From: Bacteroidota bacterium
Lineage (GTDB): Bacteria; Bacteroidota; Ignavibacteria; Palsa-1295
DNA length: 38,133 bases
Assembly (NCBI GenBank): GCA_021324685.1
Contig: JAJPIQ010000010.1
Span: forward strand, 1-38,133
Direction of reading: 5' to 3'
Made by a program: the position numbers and the translations under genes. Below are positions 25,331 to 37,866 of the stretch, one piece after another. Position 1 is the stretch's first letter, and every line of letters starts with the position of its first letter. Under the pieces are notes generated by a model that worked only from the letters and a program-made list of their open reading frames with translations, made no database searches and was not told where the DNA came from.

Positions 25331-26794
25331 ATGAAACAGACTGTAAGAGTTCTTATCCTTCTCTGCCTCGGCGCGATTGTCGCGAAGGCCCAGACCCTGC
25401 CCCTGCAATTCTGGCGCCCCTATGACGAACGTGGTGTGAATATGTTCGAAACGACGAAAACCGACACCACGCCGTTCACCGGCATCCATGTCAACGTCGG
25501 AGGCGCATTCGCGCAGCACTATCAAACGCTTCGCACTTCGAATTACGTCACGAATTCCGACGGCTCCTGGATTATCCCACCGACACTCAATCCTTCGGAG
25601 GGCGCACTCACGGCGGTCGATACGCAAAACCATCTTACGAAGCTCACCAATGGGTTCAATCTCGCGATGGCCGATATGTTCTTGGACGCGCAAGTTGCCG
25701 ATGGCATTCGCATCAACGTCACCGTGTATCTTTCAACCCGCCATCATGAAGATTGCTGGGTAAAGAATGGTTACCTCCAAATGGACAAGGCGACCTTTTT
25801 GCACAGCGACCTTATCAACGATCTCTTCAAGTATTTGACGGTGAAGGTCGGTCAGCTCGAAGTCGATTATGGCGATGCGCATTTCTATCGCGCCGACGGT
25901 GGCAACGAAATGTACAACCCGTTTATTGAAAACAATATCATGGACGAATTCGCGACCGAGATCGGCGGCGAAGTGTACTTCCATGACCCCAGCGGTTTCT
26001 TTGCAATGGTCGGCGTAACCGATGGCATGCTGAACCCGTCGGTCCAGGCGGCCCAGGTGATCGATTCGCTTACCGCCGACACGAATCGGTACAATCCAGC
26101 CTATCATTTCAAACTTGGGTTCGATAAGCAAATTAATCCAGACCTTCGCGTTCGACTGACTGGTTCGTACTATACCGAAAGCAGCACCGGGTCGAGTACG
26201 CTTTTTGGCGGAGATCGCGCCGGGTCGAATTACGTGACCGATATGGTTACCAAGGCAACCCTTGCAGCGGCCAGCTCCGGCGATGCGAACGAAGTGTTTA
26301 CAGACGGACGCTATAATCCAGGCTTCAGCGAAGCGGTGAGTACCTTTATGATCAATCCGTTTATCAAGTTCATGGGCTTCGAACTTTTTGGAACCTATGA
26401 AAGTGCGAATGGTCGTAAAATCTTTGAAACGACGACTCGCAATGCCACGCAGTTGGCCGGCCAACTCCTCTATCGCTTCGGCGATCAGGATCAATTCTGG
26501 GTCGGCGGTCGCTACAATACACTCAAGGCCGAATGGACGCCATCGAGTGCTGCAAACCTGGTAGCGATCAAAACGCAATACGGTTCGGACCCGAAGGTCA
26601 CGATCAACCGACTTGCATTCTCGGCTGGATGGTTCATGACACAAAACGTTATGATGAAACTCGAGTATGTCTCCCAGGAATACAATGACTACCCGGGTTC
26701 TTCCACCCTCGCGGCCTCGAAAGCGCTGCCGGTTAACGTGCTTACCGATGGCAAATTCGACGGTCTAATCGTCGAAGCGTCGGTCGGATTCTAA
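25331..26794 (+). CDS. Outer-membrane porin-like beta-barrel protein
   Basis: The 487 residues have a signal peptide (MKQTVRVLILLCLGAIVAKAQ) and a long beta-barrel sequence with porin features: FNLAMADMFLDAQVADGIRINV, YLTVKVGQLEVDYGDAHFYRAD, GGEVYFHDPSGFFAMVGVTDGM, and the C-terminal strand FDGLIVEASVGF ending in Phe. It resembles phosphate-selective OprO/OprP or DcaP-like porins, especially in the KVGQxxxDYGDxHFYR segment, but the assignment is by eye. It is the last gene after two yceI genes and is followed by a strong terminator, so the three form one transcription unit. Co-function in uptake of a hydrophobic or anionic solute is possible. Confidence 0.8.
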   Translation: MKQTVRVLILLCLGAIVAKAQTLPLQFWRPYDERGVNMFETTKTDTTPFTGIHVNVGGAFAQHYQTLRTSNYVTNSDGSWIIPPTLNPSEGALTAVDTQNHLTKLTNGFNLAMADMFLDAQVADGIRINVTVYLSTRHHEDCWVKNGYLQMDKATFLHSDLINDLFKYLTVKVGQLEVDYGDAHFYRADGGNEMYNPFIENNIMDEFATEIGGEVYFHDPSGFFAMVGVTDGMLNPSVQAAQVIDSLTADTNRYNPAYHFKLGFDKQINPDLRVRLTGSYYTESSTGSSTLFGGDRAGSNYVTDMVTKATLAAASSGDANEVFTDGRYNPGFSEAVSTFMINPFIKFMGFELFGTYESANGRKIFETTTRNATQLAGQLLYRFGDQDQFWVGGRYNTLKAEWTPSSAANLVAIKTQYGSDPKVTINRLAFSAGWFMTQNVMMKLEYVSQEYNDYPGSSTLAASKALPVNVLTDGKFDGLIVEASVGF

Positions 26795-29082: not shown

Positions 29083-30402
29083 TTAGACCGCGGCTTGCTC
29101 GCGCTTCAATGCTTCGCGTTCGATTTCGAGTTGGCGAATACGCCGCTCGATCTGGTCGAGTTCTGCCGGCATCGAGTCGATTTCAATACGGAGCTTGCTC
29201 GCAGCTTCATCGACCAGGTCGATTGCTTTATCCGGCAGAAATCGATCGGCAATGTACCGGTCGGAAAGTTGCGCGGCAGCAATTAGGGCCGCATCGCGGA
29301 TCCGAACCCCATGGTGCAACTCATATTTTTCCTGAAGTCCCCGTAAAATAGAGATCGTATCCTCTACGCTCGGCTCACCGACGAACACCGGTTGAAACCG
29401 CCGTTCGAGCGCCGCATCCTTCTCGATATGTTTGCGGTATTCGTCGAGCGTGGTCGCACCGATGGTATGAAGTTCCCCGCGCGCCAGTGCCGGCTTTAGG
29501 ATGTTGGCGGCGTCCATCGCCCCCTGCGTCGCACCGGCACCGATCAGCGTATGCAGCTCATCGATAAACAGAATGATTTCCCCGGCCGATTCGGCCACTT
29601 CTTTCACAATGGCTTTTAAGCGCTCCTCGAACTGGCCGCGATAACTCGTTCCCGCAACCAGCGTTCCCATGTCGAGCGCAACGATTCGCTTACTCTTGAG
29701 CCCTTCCGGCACATCGCCTGCCGCGATTCGGTTGGCAATCCCTTCCACGATCGCGGTCTTTCCGACGCCGGGATCCCCAATGAGAACGGGATTATTTTTT
29801 GTGCGCCGAGAGAGGACCTGCATCACGCGGCGAATTTCGTCTTCGCGGCCGATCACGGGATCGAGTTTGCCTTTCCGCGCGAGGTCGGTAAGATCGCGAC
29901 CGTACTTTTCGAGCGATTGGTACCGTTCTTCGGCGTTCGGGTCGGTGACGCGTTGACTTCCCCGAACAGATCGGAGTGCGGCAAGCACGCCATTTTTCGT
30001 CACTCCATGATCTTTTAAAAGCTGCGTTGATGGCGTGTTTCCATCGAGCAGTGCAAGCAGCAAATGCTCGGTCGAAACGTATTCATCTTTAAGCGATTCG
30101 GCTTCATTTCGGGCAACGTCGAAGAGCCTGTTCAAATTATTGGATGCGAATTGATTTGCTCCGGTAGCCCCGGTTACTTTCGGAAGCTTTTCGAGTGCGC
30201 CGGTCACGCGAATACGTAATTGATCGATATTGACTCCTATTTTTCGGAGCACCGAGGTCGCGACGCCTTCGGGGTCCTGGATCAGCGCGGCGAGCAAATG
30301 TTCGGGCTCGACCTGGTTATTGCCGTAGTTTGACGCGATTTCGACCGCGGACTGCAGCGCTTCCTGCGATTTGACCGTTAGTTTGTTTGGATTGATTGCC
30401 AT
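29083..30402 (-). CDS. clpB: ClpB disaggregase, N-terminal half (Clp_N plus NBD1) as a separate gene
   Basis: The 439 residues are the N-terminal half of ClpB: two Clp_N repeats (about 1-150, starting [19 protein letters not shown]) and the first AAA+ domain. That domain has Walker A GDPGVGKT (209-216), Walker B LFIDE (278-282), substrate-loop GTSYRG and arginine-finger region LERRF (332-336). A short start of the M domain ends at [12 protein letters not shown] just before the stop. Intact ClpB would continue with the coiled coil and NBD2, which are encoded at 630-1955. The split lies at the end of M-domain helix 1, so each product has one complete AAA+ ring domain. It is the first gene of an operon with the HAD phosphatase and pgeF. 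No Shine-Dalgarno sequence is evident. Confidence 0.94.
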
Positions 30403-35398: not shown

Positions 35399-36058
35399 TT
35401 AGAAGACCTCCTCTACCGTCAATTGGTCGTTCACTTTAGCTACTCCGGGCGCAGCCCATGCGGCGCTTTCGGCATCGTCGCGTTCTGCCCATGAGTGAAC
35501 TGTTCCCTTTAACGTTACAAGGCTGCCGTTCACATCGACCGAAATATTGCTCGCATCGACGGTTGCCGAGCGCTGGAACGCCTGCTGGATCTTGTCCTTA
35601 ATATCGATCGGTTTCAAAACCGGCTTTACCGTGACGAAATTCGTTACGCCTTTAACGCCCATGATGTCTTCGACCTCACGGCGTGCTTCGTCTTTCTGGA
35701 ACTGCCATTCGACGTCCCCTTCCAGTTTTACCCAGCCATTTTCGACGCTGACCGTGATGCGGTCGTCGGGAATAGCAGTGCACCATTTGAGAGCATCGGC
35801 CGCCGCCTGTGCGATCTCGGTGTCCGTCCGCACATTGTTCCCATCGAGTTTGATTTGAAGTTCCTCGGCGAGCGCACGCACGCCATTCACACCCTTGGCC
35901 GCACGTTCGGCCGCTAACTTCCCGGGATAACTATCGACTCGTCCCGTGAGGGTAACGACGCCATGGTCCACCGTCACGCCAATTTCCGCTTTGTTCAATA
36001 ACGGTTCCCATTTTAGCGCGTCCATGACGTCGCGCTGCAGTTGTTGGTTCGATTTCAT
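35399..36058 (-). CDS. Triple BON-domain protein (OsmY-like)
   Basis: The 219 residues contain three BON domains (about 5-72, 77-148 and 150-217). Each has the pattern of a helix, a strand ending in GxVxLxGxV, and a conserved Gly. Examples are ITVSVENGWVKLEGDVEWQFQKDEARREVE and ISVDVNGSLVTLKGTVHSWAERDDAESAAWAAPGVAKVNDQL. BON domains bind membranes or phospholipid and occur in osmotic-stress proteins such as OsmY. There is no signal peptide, so unlike OsmY it is predicted to be cytoplasmic. It is divergent from the hsp20 gene across a 274-base intergenic region, which fits a shared stress response. Confidence 0.9.
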   Translation of the reverse strand: MKSNQQLQRDVMDALKWEPLLNKAEIGVTVDHGVVTLTGRVDSYPGKLAAERAAKGVNGVRALAEELQIKLDGNNVRTDTEIAQAAADALKWCTAIPDDRITVSVENGWVKLEGDVEWQFQKDEARREVEDIMGVKGVTNFVTVKPVLKPIDIKDKIQQAFQRSATVDASNISVDVNGSLVTLKGTVHSWAERDDAESAAWAAPGVAKVNDQLTVEEVF

Positions 36059-36332: not shown

Positions 36333-36839
36333 ATGGCACTTATTCAATGGGGGCGATCCCCTTTCGATCCAATAGAACGCGTCCTTTTAAGAGCGATGCG
36401 GCGGCCCGCTAGTTTAGACGAGCTGGATATACCGAGTGTCGATATGACGGAGGATAAAGAAAATTTTTATATCATCTCCGAACTACCTGGCATGTCGGAA
36501 GACGATGTAAAAGTGACCGTGGACGCCGATCTCTTAACGATCAGCGGGAACAAAGAGCGAAAGAAAGACACGAAGGTCCTCCGATATCATCGGGCCGAAC
36601 GAAACTATGGTGAGTTCGTACGGTGCTTTACGATACCGGCGAACGTCAACGCCAATGCGATAACAGGAACGTTCCGAAACGGCCTTCTGGAACTCACGCT
36701 CCCGAAGACCACGGTCAACATCCCGGCACCGCGAGAGATCATGCTGAACAAGGCGCAGGCGATGCCCACTGCTCCCATGCAGCGAATCGCCGAGCCAATC
36801 GGGCAACTTAAATCCGAAAAGAAAGCAGTCCTCGCGTAA
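36333..36839 (+). CDS. hsp20: Small heat-shock protein Hsp20
   Basis: The 168 residues have an alpha-crystallin domain (about 34-130): VDMTEDKENFYIISELPGMSEDDVKVTVDADLLTISGNKERKK at the start and NANAITGTFRNGLLELTLPK at the end. The C-terminal extension contains VNIPAPREIML, a place where an I-x-I-like anchor would sit. Hsp20 proteins hold unfolded proteins in oligomers for refolding by DnaK and ClpB. An AGGAG lies about 9 bases before the ATG. It probably heads the cluster of two tiny genes downstream, separated by a hairpin without a U tract. Confidence 0.93.
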   Translation: MALIQWGRSPFDPIERVLLRAMRRPASLDELDIPSVDMTEDKENFYIISELPGMSEDDVKVTVDADLLTISGNKERKKDTKVLRYHRAERNYGEFVRCFTIPANVNANAITGTFRNGLLELTLPKTTVNIPAPREIMLNKAQAMPTAPMQRIAEPIGQLKSEKKAVLA

Positions 36840-36859: not shown

Positions 36860-36892
36860 GCCCAGCCACTTCAGAAGACGGGGTGGCTGGGC
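36860..36892 (+). other. Perfect 10-bp hairpin between hsp20 and the tiny genes
   Basis: GCCCAGCCAC (36860-36869) pairs perfectly with GTGGCTGGGC (36883-36892) around a 13-nt loop. No T run follows on either strand, so it is unlikely to be a classic terminator. It may mark an mRNA end or processing point that separates hsp20 from the next genes. Confidence 0.5.
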
Positions 36893-36923
36893 AATGGGAA
36901 GGATCTTGAATAGGAGAAACGCA

Positions 36924-37127
36924 ATGAAACCCATCGAGATGAACGATCGTGAACTTCTCGAATTACTCCGAGAGAATGAAGAGGAACGAAAGCGCCCAGA
37001 AATTCCGGGGAGTATTGAATTTCACTATCGCCATCATCCAAATTTGATGCGAATGACTCGCCTTCGATCCAACCGACGGGGCGAGAGCGTTTCGAAGGGA
37101 GATTCGCAGTTTCTATCGATGCCATGA
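36924..37127 (+). CDS. Small charged protein of unknown function (67 aa)
   Basis: This 67-residue product is highly charged. The first half is acidic and helical (DRELLELLRENEEERKRPE), and the second half is basic (HYRHHPNLMRMTRLRSNRR). There is no signal peptide or membrane segment. The ATG has a good Shine-Dalgarno sequence (TAGGAG, 7 bases upstream). Its stop overlaps the start of a 37-residue membrane-protein gene by ATGA, so the two are coupled. No family is recognised. The position after hsp20 suggests a stress-related role only by context. Confidence 0.65.
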   Translation: MKPIEMNDRELLELLRENEEERKRPEIPGSIEFHYRHHPNLMRMTRLRSNRRGESVSKGDSQFLSMP

Positions 37128-37237
37128 TCGACTTTATGCTGATCGCGCTCTCCATTCTCTGGGGCACATTCCTGGGATGGTGTACGGAACACTTCCGGCG
37201 ATGGTCAGCGGAACGGCATCGAACCGTTTTTAAATAA
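37124..37237 (+). CDS. 37-residue single-span membrane miniprotein
   Basis: The 37 codons start at the ATG that overlaps the TGA of the 67-residue gene (ATGA). The sequence has one predicted transmembrane helix (MIDFMLIALSILWGTFLGWC) followed by a basic, Arg-rich tail (TEHFRRWSAERHRTVFK). That layout fits an inner-membrane miniprotein with the C-terminal end in the cytoplasm. Translation is likely coupled to the upstream gene, since no separate ribosome site is needed. It has no known homologue that I can name. Confidence 0.55.
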   Translation: MIDFMLIALSILWGTFLGWCTEHFRRWSAERHRTVFK

Positions 37238-37253
37238 TTTCCAAATATAAAAA

Positions 37254-37332
37254 TATAATTATTCTCATTATCGGACGGCGAATGACGGTGGAAGTTTTGA
37301 AAGTACGAAATTTTTGAAGTCATCCGCCGTCC
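37254..37332 (+). promoter_or_regulatory. TATAAT box and long leader hairpin of the cupin gene
   Basis: A perfect TATAAT lies at 37254-37259. Immediately downstream, GGACGGCGAATGAC (37273-37286) pairs with GTCATCCGCCGTCC (37319-37332) at 13 of 14 positions around a 32-nt AT-rich loop. The predicted 5' end of the cupin mRNA would be this hairpin, and it finishes 15 bases before the start codon. Confidence 0.45.
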
Positions 37333-37347
37333 ATTGGAAAATCGAAT

Positions 37348-37866
37348 ATGAGTTATCTTACGAACATCTTTTACGATACGACGGAAAACCAGAATTTCCG
37401 AACGGTCCTGTTCACAGGAATGCACTCGCAGCTCGTCGTGATGTCGATTCCGCCTTCGGGCGAGATCGGTATGGAAACGCATGACGCCGTCGAACAGACC
37501 TTATTCTTTTTGAGCGGCACTGGCATGGCCCTCCTGAACGGCGAGAGGAAGGAGGTCCACCCGGGCGATGCCTTGGTTATCGCGCCGGGAACCGAGCACA
37601 ATGTGCTAAACACGGGCACAGTGCCGCTCAAACTTTTTACCGTCTATGCGCCGCCCAATCATCTCGACGGCCGGGTGCATGCAACGAAAGCCGATGCCGA
37701 CTCCGATCGCGAAGATGAAGCATTCGGCAGCGATCGCAGCATAACGAGCAGCCGATCAGAGTTTGTACCGGATTTCATACCCACATGGGAACCGCGTCCG
37801 GAACCCGCCAATCCGCTCGAACATCCCGATGGACCCGCAATTTCGATCTATGCACATGAAATTTAA
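37348..37866 (+). CDS. Cupin-domain protein
   Basis: The 172 residues contain a cupin_2 barrel (about 25-105): ETHDAVEQTLFFLSGTGMALLNGERKEVHPGDALVIAPGTEHNVLNTGTVPLKLFTVYAPP. The metal ligands of motif 1 appear as His45 and Glu49 and the motif 2 His as His83 (in GTEHN), so metal binding is likely. The tail (about 110-172) is acidic and Pro-rich with no family match. No substrate can be inferred. The start is close to a leader hairpin, and the next gene begins 28 bases after its stop. Confidence 0.88.
   Translation: MSYLTNIFYDTTENQNFRTVLFTGMHSQLVVMSIPPSGEIGMETHDAVEQTLFFLSGTGMALLNGERKEVHPGDALVIAPGTEHNVLNTGTVPLKLFTVYAPPNHLDGRVHATKADADSDREDEAFGSDRSITSSRSEFVPDFIPTWEPRPEPANPLEHPDGPAISIYAHEI

Follow-up and report, generated by a model that had tools for sequence, protein, structure and literature searches.

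Two tiny overlapping open reading frames follow the hsp20 gene in the window (the whole stretch of DNA analysed, 38,133 nucleotides), which raises the question whether they are true genes and, if so, what they could do between a small heat-shock protein and a cupin. Their coordinates, their frames and their ATGA overlap were found as given in the preliminary description, and so was the good ribosome site assigned there to the first frame. The genes and signals around them are the following.

35399..36058, reverse strand: divergent gene for a three-BON-domain protein (BON, three stretches, E 2.9e-46)
36333..36839, forward strand: hsp20, alpha-crystallin family small heat-shock protein (Pfam HSP20, E 1.3e-20), first gene of the block
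36912..36916, forward strand: AGGAG, ribosome-binding site of ORF1, 7 nt before the ATG, read from the sequence
36924..37127, forward strand: ORF1, 67 aa, with an acidic N-terminal half and a conserved basic core (residues 27-54)
37124..37127, forward strand: ATGA overlap of the ORF1 stop and the ORF2 start, identical in genus-mate G006
37124..37237, forward strand: ORF2, 37 aa, with a single predicted transmembrane helix, in which S10, G14, G18 and W19 are invariant, and an Arg-rich tail behind it
37273..37332, forward strand: imperfect inverted repeat (hairpin) in the gap between ORF2 and cupin, with 14-nt arms (37273-37286 and 37319-37332) and a 32-nt spacer
37348..37866, forward strand: gene for a cupin-domain protein (Pfam Cupin_2, E 8e-15), downstream anchor of the block

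A translated search with ORF1 resulted in a match in G006 (E 1.1e-10, 49% identity over 45 residues). Among 100 related genomes, including the own one, this was the sole match below E 1e-3 outside the own genome. In G006, ORF1 sits between hsp20 and cupin, which were both located by independent searches. With 79 aa and an SD-like AGGTGA, it shares an ATGA overlap with a second ORF of 69 aa, whose product starts with a predicted membrane helix. The stop of this second ORF is in turn joined to the cupin start in an ATGA, so that ORF1, ORF2 and cupin form one overlapping string in G006. The ATGA overlap between ORF1 and ORF2 is present in both species and, as read from the sequence, no ribosome site (SD) of its own was seen before ORF2 in either of them, as expected for a coupled pair.

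When the window was compared with G006, 29, 23 and 40 differences were counted at codon positions 1, 2 and 3 of the 67 ORF1 codons. For the whole ORF1 pS was 0.77 and pN 0.37, and for its core (residues 27-54) pS was 0.76 and pN 0.14; no dS is given because the synonymous sites of ORF1 are saturated. For ORF2, pS and pN were 0.70 and 0.41 over 33 codons. Permutation tests of the frame used protein-made alignments and lean towards the frame; therefore, the coding claim was rested on the translated searches, synteny and pS/pN. In two ORF1 and three ORF2 sequences, which are few for tests of selection, the frames are conserved with an excess of synonymous changes. An unconserved frame with equal rates, which the preliminary description had named as the pattern speaking against its genes, was not observed in the two sequences compared. 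That both frames are spurious and merely part of a spacer is thus very improbable: the lack of a family match and the presence of just two to three members would agree with it, but the translated match of E 1.1e-10 at a syntenic place, the synonymous excess and the conserved ATGA overlap all argue against it. It is well supported by these sequence comparisons that ORF1 and ORF2 are true protein-coding genes and not chance frames. The expectation that the same pair would lie beside hsp20 in related genomes held for G006 but for no further genome, and the pair is therefore regarded as lineage-restricted.

ORF1 gave no match in Pfam, PHROG, NCBIfam, PADLOC or PDB. No convincing relative beyond G006 was identified in 100 relatives, 395 phylum genomes and 391 class genomes, and none was found in viral contigs and plasmids. 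In a search of genome contigs, the sole relative was located on JAKAIL010000010.1 (32338 bases), which was taken as the G006 contig. Weak matches in nine of the 100 relatives (E 0.012 to 0.089, six of the nine with in-frame stops) were collectively taken as noise, as were five in the 395 phylum genomes (E 5.8e-4 to 0.0084, three of the five with in-frame stops). With respect to a role of the pair in defence or phage biology, no PADLOC or PHROG match was better than E 0.2. The AlphaFold2 model of ORF1 (pLDDT 62) was too poor for use.

For ORF2, a profile made from the two proteins identified a third member in G001 (G001:C1:500228-500326, E 7.1e-6 in 13 family genomes; next match 0.065), in a frame with an ATG start and 82 residues. 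When the three-member profile was run against 391 class genomes, the members were recovered with E values of 1.6e-18 or lower, and no further match was below E 0.0036; the other matches, in 20 genomes, were weak (E 0.0036 to 0.046). ORF2 was not found in viral contigs, nor in plasmids when the G001 relative was used as query. In a composition-matched shuffle test, the scores of G001 ORF2 with the window copy (G000) and with G006 were reached by 0 of 5000 shuffles, and the score between G000 and G006 by 61 of 5000, i.e., it was modestly above the shuffles. The residues M1, D3, F4, I7, S10, G14, G18 and W19 are common to all three proteins. ORF2 of the window contains a single hydrophobic segment, and the maximal 19-residue Kyte-Doolittle means of the three members (1.73 for the window copy, then 1.92 and 1.85) fit a single-pass helix. 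The invariant SxxxGxxxGW helix, as seen in the aligned sequences, suggests helix packing.

This N-terminal helix is common to the ORF2 relatives, while their tails differ in length and sequence, and the similarity of the G006 and G001 tails is at chance level (525 of 5000 shuffles reach their score). The 37-residue ORF with one helix and an Arg-rich tail described earlier is present in the window, but its length is not kept, since the other two members are 69 and 82 residues long. Window ORF2 might be a truncated remnant of such a longer coupled gene, with only ORF1 being functional. In line with this, the frame is broken after the ORF2 stop (the profile match runs through four stops) and 110 nt separate ORF2 from cupin. 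However, the helix, which is the sole conserved part, is intact in the window, and the longer tails of G006 (69 aa) and G001 (82 aa) are not alike beyond chance; a remnant is considered unlikely.

The neighborhood of the pair was compared across the genus. hsp20 is followed by cupin in six of the seven genus genomes, own included. In four of these six (G001, G002, G003, and G005) the slot between both genes is occupied by a two-domain universal stress protein (USP; Pfam Usp) of 284-323 codons, and in the window (G000) and G006 by the ORF1-ORF2 pair. The earlier proposal of a stress module is supported by this arrangement. A divergent gene similar to that of the window precedes hsp20 in G006, G002, and G001. 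In G000 and G006, the only USP-like match lies elsewhere in the genome, with a score similar to that of the second USP in the other genomes. No remnant of a lost USP was detected in the window gap (tblastx against the slot USP genes, best E 0.16) and neither ORF1 nor ORF2 had a match in Pfam, the Usp domain included. The pair resembles the two-domain USPs of four genus-mates in its position between hsp20 and cupin, but the gap has no sequence similarity to the USP genes.

In G004, no match at E 1e-3 was obtained for the window Hsp20, the window cupin or the G002 USP. The G004 genome is 98% complete with 7% contamination, and in five of the six other genus genomes three Hsp20 matches each were found. 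G000, G004, and G006 group together in a permease tree (support 0.83) and G000 and G006 in the hsp20 tree (0.999); in the cupin tree G000 and G006 are unpaired. Judged from these trees and the gene order, the simplest story would be that the pair took the place of the USP once, in the common ancestor of G000, G004, and G006, and that the block was later lost in G004, for which the cupin tree is of no help. A swap of a small-protein pair for a USP in the hsp20 block opens the question whether both do the same job.

Other small genes were also noted in this region. In G006, a 115-aa hydrophobic ORF (L038:3067-3414), without significant family match and without counterpart in the window, lies between hsp20 and ORF1. 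Downstream of cupin, a short conserved ORF is present in G001, G002, G003, and G005, and is begun at the end of the window; in G001 a baeRF-family gene is also located downstream of cupin.

The third ORF2 gene has different neighbors. It is located inside extra DNA between two ABC-2 permease genes (Pfam).

G001:C1:499869-500466 (L061, L107): insertion of ~0.6 kb, single-copy, carrying the third ORF2 relative

TAATGC is found at both ends of this extra DNA, and its sequence occurs once, in G001 only, among the 7 genomes. The ABC-2 permease matches are 9, 15, 21, and 38 nt apart in G002, G000, G003, and G005, respectively, without ORF2 between them, and 253 nt apart in G004. The ~250 nt at the G004 permease junction (L103, G004:C38) include a palindrome-like repeat (TCATCCTGAGCGGAG ... 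CTCCGCTCAGAATGACA), and therefore this junction seems open to insertions. ORF1 was not found in G001 in the class-genome search. Since the G001 relative of ORF2 is without an ORF1 partner, ORF1 and ORF2 are separable. One could speculate, with little probability, that ORF2 represents a membrane stress peptide of mobile and modular nature, set into differing operons of the genus: together with ORF1 it would have replaced the USP in the hsp20 block, and alone, with TAATGC as a possible target duplication, it would have been inserted between ABC-2 permease genes in another species. If true, mobile ORF2 would tune whichever membrane or stress system adjoins its landing site.

For the earlier suggestion that such small genes regulate membrane proteases or transporters, the position of the third ORF2 gene between two permease genes is the sole hint. 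It also bears on the possibility, which is real but doubtful, that ORF2 assists or regulates, as a subunit, one particular larger membrane protein (a transporter, a protease or a respiratory complex), with ORF1 as a cytosolic adaptor. AcrZ and MgrB are one-helix small proteins of this kind, which act on AcrB and PhoQ. Like them, ORF2 is a single-pass small protein able to pack on a larger membrane protein, for which the conserved GxxxG helices are suited, but its sequence matches none of the families searched. Moreover, the other two ORF2 genes adjoin no transporter gene, and the ABC-2 permease pair lacks ORF2 in G000, G002, G003, and G005, where its genes are 9-38 nt apart. A toxin-antitoxin-like pair, in which ORF2 would be a membrane-depolarising peptide restrained by ORF1, was also considered. 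A short, basic one-helix peptide encoded next to another small gene, the glycine-zipper-like helix of ORF2, and a patchy distribution, with the third ORF2 gene in an insertion specific to G001, are compatible with such a system. It is nevertheless rather improbable, as the G001 copy occurs alone (i.e., the partner is not obligate), the family searches gave no match for ORF1, and no RNA family match above threshold was obtained at the locus.

The reading preferred here, which is put forward tentatively, is that the pair may represent lineage-specific, stress-linked and translationally coupled small proteins, of which ORF2, by analogy, might act in the membrane somewhat as YohP. As described in the report on YohP of E. 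coli (PMC12719787), this is a 27-aa stress-induced membrane peptide with one helix, mainly in N-out/C-in orientation, which dimerises by a glycine motif, lowers the membrane potential and gives stress protection. YohP and ORF2 have in common one helix, the N-out/C-in orientation (predicted for ORF2), a glycine motif in the helix, and a likely stress context. This is a likeness of kind, without a claim of sequence relation or membership, and ORF2 differs from YohP in that its gene lies in an hsp20 block and is probably coupled to another small gene.

The proposed mechanism would operate as follows. Because ORF2 is without a ribosome site of its own, it would be made mainly by ribosomes finishing ORF1, which would result in a fixed proportion of both proteins. 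With an Asp before the helix and an Arg-rich stretch after it, ORF2 is predicted to cross the inner membrane once, with the N-terminus out and the Arg-rich tail inside. Through its SxxxGxxxGW face it may pack against itself or against a larger membrane protein, and ORF1 would be its soluble, partly basic partner. Under stress, the pair would be produced with hsp20 and could adjust the membrane (fluidity, potential or transporter activity) while Hsp20 holds misfolded proteins. The pair adds two small-protein families that are new to all libraries searched and show evidence of selection.

The gaps flanking the pair measure 84 nt before ORF1 and 110 nt after ORF2. The first of these contains a hairpin.

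36860..36892, forward strand: hairpin with a 13-bp stem and a 7-nt loop, no T tract (dG -28.7, z -3.9 versus dinucleotide shuffles)

With an 84-nt gap containing a hairpin and a 110-nt gap, separate transcription of the pair is possible. Sigma-70-like promoters in the region numbered 2, compared with 1.9 expected. The inverted repeat in the second gap (37273-37332), viewed as a dispersed element, has no second exact copy within the window. The hairpin after hsp20 has the lowest energy among 33 gene ends surveyed in the window, and five of six genomes have a strong local hairpin at this position, with z between -2.9 and -6.2 (the window and the gaps after hsp20 in L038, L039, L041, and L042). 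In the G003 gap, the local hairpin was not significant (z -0.9) and a longer-range stem was seen. The stem sequences vary between species. T-rich tails are present on several other gene-end hairpins of the window, e.g., those with 3' ends at 26794, 34575, and 35399. Since the hairpin after hsp20 has no T tract, it probably serves operon processing or mRNA protection rather than termination, and would keep the hsp20 mRNA more abundant than that of the downstream small genes. Similar stem-loops are carried by selectively processed operons, according to PMC8219983. These selective RNA processing and stabilisation operons, described in Clostridium, likewise have a stable stem-loop inside the operon, 3' of the selected gene. 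No Rfam family match at the locus reached its gathering score; Antizyme_FSE, with 24.8 bits versus 40 needed, was sub-threshold for the hairpin after hsp20 and was taken as chance.

Elsewhere in the window, ClpB was found as two separate ORFs (29083-30402 and 630-1955), both on the reverse strand and ~27 kb apart. On the ClpB model TIGR03346 (853 positions), the first ORF covers positions 1-429 and the second positions 430-848. Both ORFs have a start and a stop of their own, and the longest common word of the junction stretches is ≤ 8 nt. The arrangement resembles a split ClpB disaggregase or the result of a rearrangement.
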